Source: Actinobacteria bacterium IMCC19121
Lineage (GTDB): Bacteria; Actinomycetota; Actinomycetes; Nanopelagicales; Nanopelagicaceae
Direction: 5' to 3'
DNA length: 64,000 nucleotides
Assembly: GCA_002284895.1 (NCBI GenBank)
Contig: CP015605.1
Coordinates: 806,001 to 870,000 of the forward strand
The position numbers and the translations under genes are program-made. Positions within the stretch are counted from its first letter, which is position 1, and the number at the start of each line of letters is the position of its first letter. Below the pieces are notes generated by a model. The model had not been told where the DNA came from and ran no database searches. It saw only the letters and a program-made list of their open reading frames with translations. This document shows, piece after piece, positions 16,749 through 48,770 of the stretch.

Positions 16749-16771
16749 ACAGTAGGCAGCCCCACTGACAA
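16749..16771 (-). promoter_or_regulatory. PafBC-type (RecA-NDp) promoter of the CPBP gene
   Basis: On the minus strand the sequence reads TTGTCAGTG, 8 bases, then TACTGT. This fits the mycobacterial RecA-independent DNA-damage promoter tTGTCRgtg-N8-TAnnnT, known to be activated by PafBC. It shares the palindrome CTGACAATTTGTCAG (16765-16779) with the plus-strand promoter. Confidence 0.8.
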
Positions 16772-16772
16772 T

Positions 16773-16795
16773 TTGTCAGAGGCGCCTTCTAACCT
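16773..16795 (+). promoter_or_regulatory. PafBC-type promoter of the 16802 gene
   Basis: The plus strand reads TTGTCAGAG, 8 bases, then TAACCT (16790-16795). It is followed 6 nt later by the ATG at 16802, giving a leaderless start. Confidence 0.75.
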
Positions 16796-16801
16796 AGAGC
16801 C

Positions 16802-17194
16802 ATGTTAGAAACCCTCTTTTTTGCCACCCTGATCTTCCTCTTCCTTAACCGCTCAAAGAAGAAGCGCCGTCCGCGCTCGCTAGATGGTGAACTCAAAGAG
16901 TTACTAGCAACTGATCAAGAGAACAAAGGCATAGCGTTAGATATAAAGAACTATCTCCTATGGATCATTGAGTGCAATAACAATGATGAAGAAAAGTTCA
17001 ATGATCTTCAATTAACAAAAGCCCAAGAGATCATTGATAGAGCAGGCCCAGCCGCCTTCTACTGGATGAGTGATATCGCAGCACAGCTAGCTCTGCTCTC
17101 AGCCGCCCAGATCAATGGCATACCAACGAATGTGAACGTGGAGCTAGGGGCCAGTGCAACGGCGGGGGATGTGGTGAGGGTGGTTGTTAAGTGA
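16802..17194 (+). CDS. Membrane-anchored protein of unknown function, DNA-damage promoter
   Basis: A 130-residue protein with one N-terminal membrane segment (TLFFATLIFLFLNRS), then a strongly basic stretch (KKKRRPR) that should face the cytoplasm, then a soluble helical domain. The domain carries IDRAGPAAFYWMSDIAAQLA and ends in a short beta-like tail. No family is recognised. It is divergent from the CPBP protease and both use the same palindromic PafBC box, so the two products may act together at the membrane after DNA damage. Confidence 0.6.
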   Translation: MLETLFFATLIFLFLNRSKKKRRPRSLDGELKELLATDQENKGIALDIKNYLLWIIECNNNDEEKFNDLQLTKAQEIIDRAGPAAFYWMSDIAAQLALLSAAQINGIPTNVNVELGASATAGDVVRVVVK

Positions 17195-17267
17195 TTAAGG
17201 GGTTACATTCTTGATTGTAGGCGCGTACATTTAAGGCCAGTGCATAAGTAGATTTCAGGTAAAAATC

Positions 17268-17924
17268 ATGAATGAGATGAAGTCGACAAGCAGCAGGTTC
17301 TATTGCTCTTGCAAAATGCAGATAGGCACTTGCAAAAATCTAGATCATCCAAAGAAAATGGAATGGATAGTCGGACCATTCAAAGAGGGATGGGCTTTGG
17401 GTAAATATGGAGCTGGTGTATTGAAATATGGGAAATTGGTGCAGGACTATAAATATAACGCTGAACATGTGAGCTCTAAAGATGCAAGTAAACTGAGAAG
17501 TGATGTAATGAAGGAAGTTATGCGTTCTGTAAACTACTTTATAGATGGTTACTTCCCTCCAAGAATGCGAGAATTTGACTCCGTTCTACCACTACCAAGT
17601 TCTCGTCAACAGGAACACACATTACAAAATGAAATTGCATCAAATTTGGCAGGTAAAGGTCTACTTAATCTGCAAACAACACTCAAGGTCGGCGAGGGTA
17701 CACACATAGCATCCAAGAATCTTGATGGCTTCACGGCACGGACTGAGAATAGAAGGAAGGACTATTTGATTGGTGATGCTTCTCTTTTGGCTCAGTCCAA
17801 AGGTATTCTTTTTATTGATGACGTCTATGACACCGGGGCGACCATGCGCGTGTGTGCTGAACTAATCAACGCAATACGGCCAGAATTGCCTAAGTATTTT
17901 CTTACAGTTGCGTACATAAAATAG
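17268..17924 (+). CDS. Phosphoribosyltransferase-like protein with N-terminal Cys/His cluster
   Basis: A 218-residue protein. The PRPP-binding loop of type I phosphoribosyltransferases is clear at residues 180-192 (ILFIDDVYDTGAT). The N-terminus has Cys13, Cys15, Cys22 and His27 (YCSCKMQIGTCKNLDH), which could bind zinc. The layout recalls ComF (zinc finger plus PRTase), but the N-terminal motif differs and length is similar to ComF by chance or descent. It is 23 bp from a SLOG-fold gene, so the two form a pair. The stretch is more A/T-rich than the neighbours by eye, suggesting an acquired cassette. The nucleotide it acts on or senses is unknown. Confidence 0.72.
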   Translation: MNEMKSTSSRFYCSCKMQIGTCKNLDHPKKMEWIVGPFKEGWALGKYGAGVLKYGKLVQDYKYNAEHVSSKDASKLRSDVMKEVMRSVNYFIDGYFPPRMREFDSVLPLPSSRQQEHTLQNEIASNLAGKGLLNLQTTLKVGEGTHIASKNLDGFTARTENRRKDYLIGDASLLAQSKGILFIDDVYDTGATMRVCAELINAIRPELPKYFLTVAYIK

Positions 17925-17947
17925 GTTTATTGGTAAATTCTGCAATT

Positions 17948-18508
17948 ATGAAGATCGTCCTAGGAGGTTCTCGACACCTCGAATACATTCCGAACGAAGT
18001 TGCCGAGAAATTAGATGGTTGGATAGCTAATGATGTTCAATTTCTGGTTGGTGATGCCCCTGGATCCGATCGTGCTTTTCAGTCTTTCTTACAGAAGCGA
18101 AAATACCCAAATGTTCTTGTTCTAAGTAGCGCAGGCATGATCCGTAATAATTTGGGTAATTGGCCAACAGAACTAGTCGAGTCAGGCTTAAAAAGTAAGA
18201 GTCACTCAGTTCATGCATTTAAAGACAGAAAAATGACAGCGGTATCAGATGTTGGATTGATGATTTGGGATTGCGAGAGTGCAGGAACGTTATCAAATGT
18301 GATCGACTTATTGAAACAGGGTAAGGAATGTGCTTTATGGATTGCTCCGGATTCCGAGCTTTGTAATTTTGATAACTATGATTCATTGAATAGGTGGCTT
18401 GTTAAGTACCCAGATGTTAAATTGGAAGCCGAAAGTCGTTTGGCAAAATTTGCTAAGCGTGAAGCAAAGAAGCAAATAGATAACAACCAAGAGACTTTGT
18501 TCAATTAG
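17948..18508 (+). CDS. SLOG-superfamily (DUF2493/YspA-like) nucleotide-binding protein
   Basis: A 186-residue Rossmann-like protein. The hallmark of the SLOG/DprA/LOG superfamily is visible: GGSR at residues 6-9 in the first loop, GDAPGSD at 35-41, and DKx-type block DRKMTAVSDVGLMIWD followed by SAGT. The tail is basic and helical (AKFAKREAKKQ). SLOG domains sense or process nucleotides and nucleic acids; DprA is the best-known member. The ATG at 17948 puts the first strand at the N-terminus and is preferred to TTG 17930. It is paired with the upstream PRTase. A two-gene nucleotide-signal or defence function is a hypothesis. Confidence 0.75.
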   Translation: MKIVLGGSRHLEYIPNEVAEKLDGWIANDVQFLVGDAPGSDRAFQSFLQKRKYPNVLVLSSAGMIRNNLGNWPTELVESGLKSKSHSVHAFKDRKMTAVSDVGLMIWDCESAGTLSNVIDLLKQGKECALWIAPDSELCNFDNYDSLNRWLVKYPDVKLEAESRLAKFAKREAKKQIDNNQETLFN

Positions 18509-18619
18509 TTATTGCCCAAAATACTCAATGTATTTCCCATCCCAGTCGTAGCTGTCGAAGAAATCCTGCACACCTTCGCTAATGCGCTCCATTAGTGCTT
18601 GTCTTTCTTCCTCTGTCAT
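18509..18619 (-). CDS. 36-residue acidic ORF coupled to the zinc-ribbon gene
   Basis: A short ORF whose ATG (18617-18619) overlaps the TGA of the upstream zinc-ribbon gene as ATGA. The product is acidic and aromatic (MTEEERQALMERISEGV, then FFDSYDWDGKYIEYFG). It has no recognised family. The overlap and the absence of a gap before the convergent SLOG gene support it as a real coding sequence. Confidence 0.5.
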   Translation of the reverse strand: MTEEERQALMERISEGVQDFFDSYDWDGKYIEYFGQ

Positions 18620-18831
18620 AGATCTTCCATTGAATCTCTGTGCCCACGCCAACCACACTCTCTACATGCAATATCTGGCTGCATAGGTTCAACTAAACAA
18701 CCACCCACTGCATACTTCTTAAAGTCGAAATCAGAACCAGGCATGCCATAAAGGATGCGTTGTAGTACTGCCTTTTGCAGGCACTGAGGACATATGAGCG
18801 TGCGAAGTGCGGGGCGGCGTTTGGTTGTCAT
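18616..18831 (-). CDS. Zinc-ribbon protein, DNA-damage promoter
   Basis: A 71-residue protein with two Cys pairs, CPQC (residues 14-17) and CREC (near 56-59), with YGMPGSDF and GGCLVEP between them. This is the pattern of a small family of predicted zinc ribbons of unknown function. A PafBC-type promoter (TTGTCAGTC-N8-TATCTT) ends 6 nt before the ATG, giving a leaderless message. It is translationally coupled to the 36-residue ORF downstream. Confidence 0.65.
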   Translation of the reverse strand: MTTKRRPALRTLICPQCLQKAVLQRILYGMPGSDFDFKKYAVGGCLVEPMQPDIACRECGWRGHRDSMEDL

Positions 18832-18837
18832 GGTGTG

Positions 18838-18860
18838 AAGATATGGGTGGGGACTGACAA
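18838..18860 (-). promoter_or_regulatory. PafBC-type promoter of the zinc-ribbon gene
   Basis: On the minus strand: TTGTCAGTC, 8 bases, TATCTT, then 6 nt to the ATG at 18831. It is back-to-back with the plus-strand box at 18873. Confidence 0.72.
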
Positions 18861-18872
18861 ATGAGGCTAGAT

Positions 18873-18895
18873 TTGTCAGCGCTCGGCAATACTCT
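18873..18895 (+). promoter_or_regulatory. PafBC-type promoter of the 18914 gene
   Basis: TTGTCAGCG, 8 bases, TACTCT (18890-18895). Transcription should begin near 18902, leaving a short leader with AGGAGG before the ATG. Confidence 0.72.
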
Positions 18896-18913
18896 GGTAT
18901 CAGGAGGTAGGAG

Positions 18914-19216
18914 ATGGCACAGGTCCCAATTATTGGCTCTGAAGGTAAGCCAATTCTTTATGCCTACCTTGAGGGAGCAGATCTTAAATTTGAGTTTGAG
19001 TACTACGGTACTGGCGAGAACGGAATGGATTACGAATTCATTCACACCGTTGCACCTGAAAATCAGATGTTGATTGCAAAAAAGTTTGGGCTTGATCCTA
19101 TGGCGGAAGTTCTAGATACAGTCCAGCAGATATCCAAGGCTGGCCACGGAGAAGAGTTAAAGCAAGCTCTCACTGACAAGGCAATTCCTAATCATCTCTG
19201 GACTTGGTTGAGTTGA
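18914..19216 (+). CDS. 100-residue protein of unknown function, DNA-damage promoter
   Basis: An acidic soluble protein (ADLKFEFEYYGTGENGMDYE in the first half, then helical SKAGHGEELKQALTDKAIP). No family is recognised. It has a consensus ribosome site (AGGAGGTAGGAG) and a PafBC-type promoter 18 bp upstream of the start. Divergent from the zinc-ribbon gene, it belongs to the same predicted damage-response set. Two further boxes of the same type follow its stop codon. Confidence 0.6.
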   Translation: MAQVPIIGSEGKPILYAYLEGADLKFEFEYYGTGENGMDYEFIHTVAPENQMLIAKKFGLDPMAEVLDTVQQISKAGHGEELKQALTDKAIPNHLWTWLS

Positions 19217-19223
19217 ATTAAAT

Positions 19224-19246
19224 TTGTCAGTGGGCTTTGGTAAAAT
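19224..19246 (+). promoter_or_regulatory. PafBC-type promoter, first of a tandem pair
   Basis: TTGTCAGTG, 8 bases, TAAAAT (19241-19246). This is a full consensus match just after the 18914 gene, reading toward the VWA leader. Confidence 0.75.
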
Positions 19247-19304
19247 AGGGTTATAAAGAAAACAGGAAGTGAAGTTAAGAACGAGATTCGATCTAAACTT
19301 TAAT

Positions 19305-19327
19305 TTGTCAGAGTGGTGTGGTATAAT
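19305..19327 (+). promoter_or_regulatory. PafBC-type promoter, second of a tandem pair
   Basis: TTGTCAGAG, 8 bases, TATAAT (19322-19327), exactly 81 bp downstream of the first box. Transcription should start near 19334, before the leader ORF. Confidence 0.78.
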
Positions 19328-19357
19328 TGCTTCATCACAGAAACTACGGGGGTAAAA

Positions 19358-19408
19358 ATGTTAAACACACGCATCTCCCCGCTCGCAACACGCTCAATCA
19401 ACATCTAG
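19358..19408 (+). CDS. Possible 16-residue leader peptide
   Basis: An ATG just after a G-rich site (CGGGGG) opens a 16-codon frame (MLNTRISPLATRSINI) ending at TAG 19406. It lies in the 5' leader of the VWA gene, before the hairpin array. It may be a regulatory upstream ORF, but chance occurrence cannot be excluded. Confidence 0.35.
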   Translation: MLNTRISPLATRSINI

Positions 19409-19420
19409 CCCGCTACACGC

Positions 19421-19572
19421 AAGGCCGCCAAACCAGGCCTTAAAGCTCGAAGGACCCCACCGCCCTCGTTAGGAATCCTAACCACGGCGCACCTACATGC
19501 CTCTGTACGAGAATCGTACGTTTTTGGCTCTCACCGTTCGGTTAACCGAACACCTGTCGGGCTAACCCGACA
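19421..19572 (+). repeat. Array of five hairpins in the VWA leader
   Basis: Consecutive inverted repeats are: AAGGCC/GGCCTT (19421-19441), GTTAGGAATCCTAAC (19468-19482), GTACGAGAATCGTAC (19505-19519, followed by TTTTT), GTTCGGTTAACCGAAC (19536-19551) and TGTCGGGCTAACCCGACA (19555-19572). The stretch is C-rich and has no supported long ORF. The third hairpin with its T-run looks like an attenuator terminator. The last hairpin ends 39 bp before the VWA start codon. Confidence 0.75.
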
Positions 19573-19610
19573 ACTCTTTTACTTTTCAACCCTTAAATAA
19601 GGAGATTCAA

Positions 19611-19856
19611 ATGAATGTTAAAGCCCTACTGGATGTAGACATGGTTGCACTTGAGGCAACTGACAAAGTCACACTGATGCTCGATCTCACTGCCCCTGCA
19701 AACCCAAAGCATGTAAGCCGTCCTGGCCAGGCAGTTCAAGTTGTTCTTGATCGCTCAGGTTCTATGGATGGTGCACCACTTGAAGCAGCTAAAGGCTCAT
19801 TACTAAAGCTCATTGATCTTTCCTGTGGGATATCTCTGCATTGCCTTTGCACCTAA
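19611..19856 (+). pseudogene. 5' fragment of a VWA-domain protein gene, fused at 19818
   Basis: The first 69 codons encode the start of a von Willebrand factor A domain protein: a lead-in strand (KVTLMLDLTAP) and the MIDAS motif DRSGS at residues 47-51. After LLKLID the frame runs into foreign sequence and stops 12 codons later (TAA 19854-19856). From 19819 the DNA matches the interior of an MFS transporter gene in another frame. Intact relatives have several hundred residues. A good ribosome site (AAGGAG) and the complex leader suggest the gene was once functional. Deletion or an assembly join are both possible. Confidence 0.75.
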
Positions 19857-20766
19857 TGCCTATTACTTATTTATAGGCGCAGTCTTTTTTGTCTTGGGGT
19901 ATGCCTTTATTGATAACCCAATAACAATGATTACGCAAGAACTAGAGAGAACGGCAGATCGTAAGTTTCTCTCTGGCTTTCACGCCTTCTGGTGCATGGG
20001 CACCTTAGTTGCCGCCTTCTTTGGCTCTTTCTTAATTGGGCATGTTCCATATCCAATCCACTTAAGTGGATTAGCTCTACTTAGCTTTAGTGTTCTAGTT
20101 ATTGCTGGGCAAAGGCTTGAGGCTAAAGAGGTGGACGGGGAGAAGAAAGAAAAGATTGATTTTCCCTGGTTTGGCAAAAACACAGGAATTATCTGGGCCA
20201 TTGGCTTTGCGATGCTCTGTGCTAATAGCGCTGAGTTTGGTGCAACTGATTGGTCGGCCCTGTTTTTGCGAGATGTTCTAGGTATTACAGGACAGTTCTA
20301 TGTGGGCGCATTTATGGCATTTGAGATAGGGATGATTACTTCTAGGTTATTAGGAGATAAATACATTCACACCTATGGTCCAGAGAAAGTAATAAAGGTT
20401 TGTGGATTTGTTGGATCTGTAATGTGGTTGGCAACGATGGTGCTGGGCGTGGAGATGAGTCATGGCAATAAGGTGCTGGCTTATTTTGTTATCTTGCTCG
20501 GCTACCTTGTTGCAGGTTTAGGTGTGGGACCTATGTATCCATCACTGATCACCATTGTGGGGCGCTTGAGTGGAGTAGAGACATCGGTGGCCTTTGCTAG
20601 ATGTCTTCTCATCGCACTGCTGGGCTTTGCCGTGGTGCCAGGCCTAATCGGACATATCTCTGATCTTTCATCTCTTAACATCGCAATGCTTTTGCCAATT
20701 TCTTTGTTGGCAGTTGGTGGTTATATGTCACGGGTTGCACGCAGTTCACGAGTAAAGGCGGAGTAA
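19819..20766 (+). CDS. MFS transporter, 5'-truncated
   Basis: About 315 codons of a major facilitator family protein, with roughly nine or ten membrane helices (for example YYLFIGAVFFVLGYAFIDNP, VAAFFGSFLIGHVPYP, IGMITSRLLGDKYIH, VAGLGVGPMYPSLITIVG). The N-terminal helix region of about 85-90 residues is missing, because the frame merges with the VWA fragment upstream. The first in-frame start lies inside that fragment and is not a natural start. The gene is either broken or the contig is misjoined here. DoxX follows with zero spacing, so these were originally one operon. The substrate is unknown. Confidence 0.75.
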   Translation, partial: FPVGYLCIAFAPNAYYLFIGAVFFVLGYAFIDNPITMITQELERTADRKFLSGFHAFWCMGTLVAAFFGSFLIGHVPYPIHLSGLALLSFSVLVIAGQRLEAKEVDGEKKEKIDFPWFGKNTGIIWAIGFAMLCANSAEFGATDWSALFLRDVLGITGQFYVGAFMAFEIGMITSRLLGDKYIHTYGPEKVIKVCGFVGSVMWLATMVLGVEMSHGNKVLAYFVILLGYLVAGLGVGPMYPSLITIVGRLSGVETSVAFARCLLIALLGFAVVPGLIGHISDLSSLNIAMLLPISLLAVGGYMSRVARSSRVKAE

Positions 20767-41289: not shown

Positions 41290-41333
41290 CACGTGTATGC
41301 CAGGGTCTGATTAAGGGCTAGAATAAGCACGTT

Positions 41334-41453
41334 GTTTCCGGGGTCGATGTAATTTCGAACCGGCGGTTATAGTCCGCGACCCGATGCCAGCCAGGTATCG
41401 GTTGACTCAGTGAAATTCTGGGACCGACGGTTAAAGTCCGGATGAGAGGAAAC
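41334..41453 (+). promoter_or_regulatory. FMN riboswitch (RFN element)
   Basis: The conserved parts are all present: closing stem GTTTCC/GGAAAC, GGGGTCGATGTAATTTCGA, ACCGGCGGTTATAGTCCGC, the GTGAAATTCTGG region, ACCGACGGTTAAAGTCCGG and ATGAGAGGAAAC. FMN binding reduces expression of the following riboflavin operon. Confidence 0.97.
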
Positions 41454-41506
41454 CAACAAAGGGTAGGTATTTGCCTACCTTCTTTGTGCATTTCTTTTTT
41501 GCACGC

Positions 41507-48654: not shown

Positions 48655-48770
48655 GGTCACGAGTTCTAGTGTTTAGCCCCGGCTTACTAGACGGCAACCC
48701 TCCACCACGGTGGGGTGCTCCGGGTGAAGACCAGATCGACTAGCACAACGCAGTCGATAAGCGTGGAACA
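48655..48770 (+). promoter_or_regulatory. SAM-IV (SAM-I/IV type) riboswitch
   Basis: Conserved segments of the actinobacterial SAM-IV element are present: GGTCACGAGTTCTAG, AGCCCCGGCTTACTAG, CGGCAACCCTCC, CGGTGGGGTGCTCCGGGTGA and AGACCAG, followed by a pseudoknot region. It precedes metY-metX and should reduce expression when S-adenosylmethionine is abundant. Confidence 0.93.

Follow-up and report, generated by a model that had tools for sequence, protein, structure and literature searches.

The VWA gene in the 64-kb window (the whole stretch of DNA analysed here) is preceded by a probable regulatory leader that contains an upstream open reading frame (uORF), a known kind of element in a variant arrangement. 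Its most conserved part, absent from the preliminary description of this DNA, is a 12-nt spacer and a stem-loop tied to the stop codon of the uORF. A cis-regulatory role of the leader is well supported. We observed promoters, a conserved uORF, a fixed stop-to-stem geometry, conservation at the RNA level, linkage to the VWA gene and a bias of C over G. The features are collected in Table 1.

Table 1. Positions of the promoters, leader elements and adjoining genes in the window
Feature	Position	Strand	Remarks
Promoter P1, PafBC-type, TTGTCAGTG-N8-TAAAAT	19224..19246	+	common to window and G113
Promoter P2, PafBC-type, TTGTCAGAG-N8-TATAAT	19305..19327	+	equivalents in G113, G103, G068, G487, G374, G629, G630
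SD helix, CGGGGG (19347-19352) with UCCCCG (19376-19381) inside uORF	19347..19381	+	
uORF MLNTRISPLATRSINI-stop, 16 codons	19358..19408	+	ATG 19358, TAG 19406-19408; conserved in relatives
Conserved 12-nt spacer CCCGCTACACGC, uORF stop to stem-loop	19409..19420	+	alignment; exactly 12 nt in all measured leaders
Post-stop stem-loop AAGGCC-GCCAAACCA-GGCCTT, element core	19421..19441	+	9/296 family genomes
Hairpin 2, outer stem CGCC/GGCG, inner GTTAGG-AAT-CCTAAC	19461..19489	+	inner arms 19468-19482
Hairpin 3, outer GCC/GGC stem enclosing GTACGA-GAA-TCGTAC and TTTTT	19498..19529	+	arms 19505-19519, then GTTTTT
Hairpin 4, GTTCGG-TTAA-CCGAAC	19536..19551	+	fold kept with other arms in G024, G103
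Hairpin 5, TGTCGGG-CTAA-CCCGACA	19555..19572	+	
VWA gene fragment, 69 native codons followed by 12 foreign ones and a stop	19611..19856	+	intact homologue (444 aa) in G024
MFS transporter without its 5' end, joined to VWA fragment	19813..20766	+	about 117 N-terminal residues missing

Two PafBC-type promoters starting 81 bp apart read into the leader, as described before. The transcript probably starts about 7 nt 3' of P2, which gives a leader of about 277 nt in which C exceeds G, close to the C-rich 275 nt of the earlier account. The pattern TTGTCAG-N10-TANNNT, whose letters we take to be those of the PafBC promoter motif, has six occurrences in the window where dinucleotide shuffles predict 0.1, and its frequency is thus beyond chance. 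The source genome also encodes an adjacent pair of WYL proteins of about 320 aa each, the size of PafB and PafC. A promoter of this type precedes the element in 8 of 9 genomes; the promoter in G024 is degenerate, with no recognisable PafBC motif. The window thereby resembles the PafBC regulon (RecA-NDp promoters; PMC6789036, PMC11804915) in its promoter motif and its PafB/PafC-like pair, but PafBC accounts for initiation only. The literature searched contained nothing relevant on PafBC combined with a leader or uORF, and no long regulatory leaders on PafBC-driven genes. All six sites of the window fall within 16.75-19.33 kb; judged from its sequence, this region (16749-19327), with two divergent promoter pairs (16771/16773 and 18860/18873), small orphan genes, a putative CPBP/Rce1-type protease and a ComF/PsyrT-like phosphoribosyltransferase (17268-17924), may be a damage-inducible island.

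The core of the element has the order SD, ATG, uORF of 16, 19 or 23 codons, stop, spacer and stem-loop. The 16-codon ORF noticed earlier is present in the window, with the equivalents MLYTGISPHLQSQITR, MLQTRISPRSTSLITG, MLTKRLLTTPPSVTPLIAG, MRSRIIHPALAAPIPS and MITVRVVKASTRLQFIRATHTPS in other leaders. Its start and stop are conserved among the relatives, an SD is present, and the stop is TAG except in G103, where TAA still serves as a stop. In the four closest leaders, changes at codons 4, 6, 8 and 14 are all synonymous, and the other codons vary freely. Irrespective of uORF length, the gap between stop and stem was 12 nt in all eight leaders measured. The spacer follows a CCCGCTACNCGC-like consensus and the stem-loop the consensus ARGGCC-GCCAANCCA-GGCCYT; the sequence of loop and spacer is more conserved than pairing requires. 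The stem contains one compensatory pair, a single one because it hardly varies at all, and its conservation is mostly at the sequence level. Roughly 12 nt also separate a stop codon in the A site from the ribosome's leading edge, which suggests that a terminating ribosome would abut the foot of the post-stop stem. The SD helix showed two-sided changes at two pairs among five leaders of the window's genus (GGGGG/UCCCC to GGAGG/CCUCC in G068); its register was not kept in the other genera.

Some of the uORFs end in LITG or LIAG, with Leu at -3 and Ile at -2 relative to the last residue, and Leu and Ile at such positions are cited for macrolide stalling on MsrDL (PMC12121999). This ending is not common to all leaders, others having SINI, PIPS or HTPS.

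A DNA search found a single relative, G024, at 78%. A covariance model comprising SD, uORF and stem-loop found the element in two further genera, and a pattern search over 296 family genomes located it in nine, which represent three genera (the window's genome, G024, G103, G113, G068, G374, G487, G629 and G630). Wherever the contig continues (8/8 genomes), the next gene after the element is this VWA gene. Linkage in the opposite direction is looser. With the intact VWA protein as query, homologues were found in 13 of 135 genomes of the window's genus; five, including the window, have the leader and eight do not. Hairpins missing ahead of intact VWA homologues had been named beforehand as refuting the preliminary description, and this is half the case. 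More distant VWA homologues in other families (37-47% identity) did not carry the element; two of them have a PafBC-like site about 50 bp upstream. Outside the family, no copy turned up among 394 genomes sampled from the class and 396 from the phylum, and nothing relevant appeared in IMG/VR contigs (exact pattern) or in phage and plasmid records (blastn). Within the source genome there were no further copies beyond two-mismatch matches at control level, and no exact antisense partner to the loop besides the site itself (eight matches at two mismatches, against four for a reversed-pattern control). The leader matched nothing in Rfam, at the gathering threshold or at E<=10, and no paper on such an element was found, which agrees with the earlier statement that no described element has this set of features; the RNA leader is apparently undescribed so far.

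The VWA gene has other neighbours upstream in some of these genomes. In G115 (L020) and G023 (L010) it follows another conserved 16-codon uORF (MTVIRRLLAREIGPAF and MSLIHHLLAREIGPAF), apparently leaderless behind a PafBC-type promoter and with hairpin arms that differ between the two genomes; here VWA has a second type of uORF leader, unrelated to the first. In G103 and G487 an ECF-sigma-like gene of 174-175 aa (L043:2428-2955, L040:4001-4525) lies directly 5' of the VWA leader, and G023 and G115 have a similar sigma-like C-terminal sequence upstream of VWA.

Downstream of the core, the window leader carries an array of hairpins. The five inverted repeats reported at 19421, 19468, 19505, 19536 and 19555 are present, and the leader (19335-19610) folds at -72 kcal/mol (z -3.4), a value that none of 200 shuffles reached. 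The array proper, hairpins 2-5, is confined to a few leaders from the window's genus. Leaders of the window, G113, G024 and G103 fold far better than their shuffles (z -3.2 to -6.9), that of G068 shows a weak excess (z -2.1), and those of G487, G629 and G630, which belong to other genera, show none (z about 0). Aligned over the window, G113 and G024, 93% of the array's cells pair and 4 of 34 pairs have two-sided changes, good evidence though not formal proof with three sequences; a shift of the partners by 1-3 columns lowered pairing to 26-40%. In hairpin 3, one pair is variously C-G, G-C and U-A across these three leaders, and the arms of hairpin 4 are GTTCGG/CCGAAC in the window and GCTCA/TGAGC in G024. 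These compensatory changes and the replacement of whole arms indicate that the array is an RNA structure and not a set of protein sites. We therefore rejected palindromic protein sites, the alternative offered in the preliminary description, as arm sequences are replaced by different complementary sequence while the pairing stays. Compensatory changes in homologous leaders, the absence of which had been named as refuting, are present in the SD helix, the post-stop stem and the array. Of the proposal of a new cis-regulatory RNA, the structured cis-acting RNA stands, given these changes, the conserved uORF and the lack of an Rfam match, whereas the step that it regulates is deduced.

The account we favour, at slightly less than an even chance, is that a VWA stress operon induced by PafBC carries a uORF-coupled cis-acting leader, in which termination on the uORF, set against the stem-loop, determines the fate of the transcript, perhaps via Rho. 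Damage-activated PafBC would start the transcript, and a ribosome would load on the uORF at an SD partly sequestered by pairing within the uORF. Having reached the uORF stop, its leading edge would stand at the foot of the stem-loop, 12 nt downstream. Prompt release or lingering at the stop would then decide whether the C-rich, G-poor leader becomes exposed. If exposed, transcription would be aborted in a Rho-type manner; otherwise the VWA operon would be made. The variable hairpin array may act as a spacer, shaping or protecting the mRNA. Translation of the uORF, termination as the regulated step and Rho as effector are deductions.

The base composition fits this proposal. C minus G lies between +0.12 and +0.27 in leaders with the element, against -0.09 to +0.13 in leaders without it and about 0 for the window overall; 1.3% of the window's 200-nt stretches on that strand reach the value of the window leader. 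Such a C-rich, G-poor leader suits Rho loading when uncovered, although C-richness alone is no proof of Rho. Several observations count against the favoured account: other genera lack the array, the leader is missing from eight VWA homologues of the genus, G024 has no recognisable PafBC motif, the leader has no alternative switch structure, and only one pair of the core stem covaries. A switch acting by masking of the VWA ribosome-binding site found no support, as predicted folds with a ribosome blocking either the start or the stop of the uORF left access to this site unchanged.

The strict linkage to VWA, with the element transferred along with the gene, and the sequence conservation of loop and spacer would also be expected if the invariant GCCAANCCA loop were a protein-binding, possibly autoregulatory, RNA site, recognised by a product of the operon (VWA protein or phosphatase) or by another regulator, with the uORF merely fixing its context. 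We consider this unlikely, since it leaves the fixed 12-nt distance to the stop unexplained and VWA homologues without the element exist. The length of the leader and the retention of hairpins while their sequence drifts could instead point to mRNA stability or processing, hairpins and stem-loop protecting the damage-induced mRNA or setting an RNase cut next to an incidental uORF. An incidental ORF is not expected to keep its start, stop position and frame, however, and the array is missing in other genera, which makes this explanation a rather poor candidate.

The preliminary description had likened the layout to an attenuator, with a leader peptide, a terminator and further hairpins. In its classical form, the position of the ribosome on the uORF would select between an intrinsic terminator (hairpin 3 with its TTTTT) and an antiterminator. 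In the window, hairpin 3 with TTTTT does score as terminator-like, as earlier proposed, and so does hairpin 5 with its T-rich tail. This resemblance is not conserved in the relatives: a scan of G024 and G103 gave no terminator-like match, hairpin 3 is down to four pairs in G024, and a terminator is absent in G487, G629 and G630. The TTTTT moreover sits within a partly conserved outer GCC...GGC stem maintained through compensation. Thermodynamic models of eight leaders and the ribosome-occlusion folds contained no mutually exclusive structures; as modelled, the hairpins are local and independent, with no competing antiterminator. The element thus fails two defining features of attenuators, a conserved terminator and competing structures, and we judge this mechanism very unlikely. 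Amino-acid leader-peptide attenuators of Actinobacteria (PMC1262725) likewise have a short leader ORF followed by hairpins, but the element described here lacks their regulatory codon run as well as the two features just named. Recoding to a longer product by readthrough or frameshifting, which a stem-loop 12 nt past the UAG might drive given a spacing similar to that of recoding stimulators and a post-stop frame open for about 60 codons in the window, is hardly credible and was rejected: in G487 another TAG follows in frame five codons later, the open length varies, post-stop changes fall at all codon positions, and the frame from uORF to VWA differs among leaders, so that there is no common fusion.

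Returning to the uORF-coupled leader, the nearest described systems share parts of its design. For toiL, the uORF of the topAI-yjhQP operon in E. coli, ribosome stalling has been proposed to be coupled to expression with Rho termination as the effector, and toiL sits in a hairpin with the downstream ribosome-binding site (PMC12121999). Here, too, a long leader with a short conserved uORF precedes a stress operon, but we found no pairing of the uORF with the VWA ribosome-binding site, and the sequences are unrelated. We know of no PafBC control or fixed stop-adjacent stem-loop for toiL. By analogy, the element would work most like toiL-type uORF-coupled leaders, yet we do not assign it as a member because masking of the ribosome-binding site was tested and not found. 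The ilvB-II uORF leader of Corynebacterium, first a candidate structured RNA, is likewise a conserved actinobacterial leader with a uORF (PMC10272879). It belongs to an amino-acid operon, whereas no run of codons for a single amino acid is evident in the uORFs described here.

More tentatively, and with considerable doubt, we suggest a new leader class: the invariant stem-loop, about one ribosome-edge distance (12 nt) past the uORF stop, might sense how translation terminates on an mRNA induced by DNA damage, and a mobile stress cassette would then fire only if such damage and a particular state of translation occurred together. The fixed stop-to-stem distance makes the sensing of a terminating ribosome a directly testable hypothesis. 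The combination of damage promoter and uORF/stem-loop would give the DNA damage response of actinobacteria a second gate, at the level of translation, in freshwater bacteria with small genomes, for which long leaders are costly.

The gene served by the leader is part of a mobile and mosaic cassette. In G024 and G487 the VWA operon also holds a dual-specificity phosphatase and a histone-deacetylase-like gene; a PADLOC scan of the operon proteins gave no match. Between G629 and G630, and between G130 and G064, upstream sequence is unrelated all the way to the promoter, and the leader or gene is nearly identical. In the former pair (L050, L051), which represents two species, about 450 nt from the promoter through the leader to around the first 30 VWA codons are 97-100% identical, and VWA bodies are only about 70% identical. 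Because identity falls early in VWA (about 98% before and about 70% after a point roughly 60-120 nt into the gene), the block of promoter, leader and gene start was apparently exchanged as a unit. The window contains VWA sequence behind the leader, as had been described, but of a 444-aa gene it has just the first 69 codons: a 5' part of VWA, as exchanged in G629/G630, is joined to a transporter gene, and the full-length relative of that transporter in G018 is longer by about 117 N-terminal residues. The VWA gene of the window is therefore a pseudogene and the element there a relic. The deletion or rearrangement that joined the VWA codons to the interior of the MFS gene (19611-20766) lies in a complete genome. 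Elsewhere in the window, Rfam recognises two riboswitches, FMN at 41330-41457 and SAM-IV at 48655-48769.
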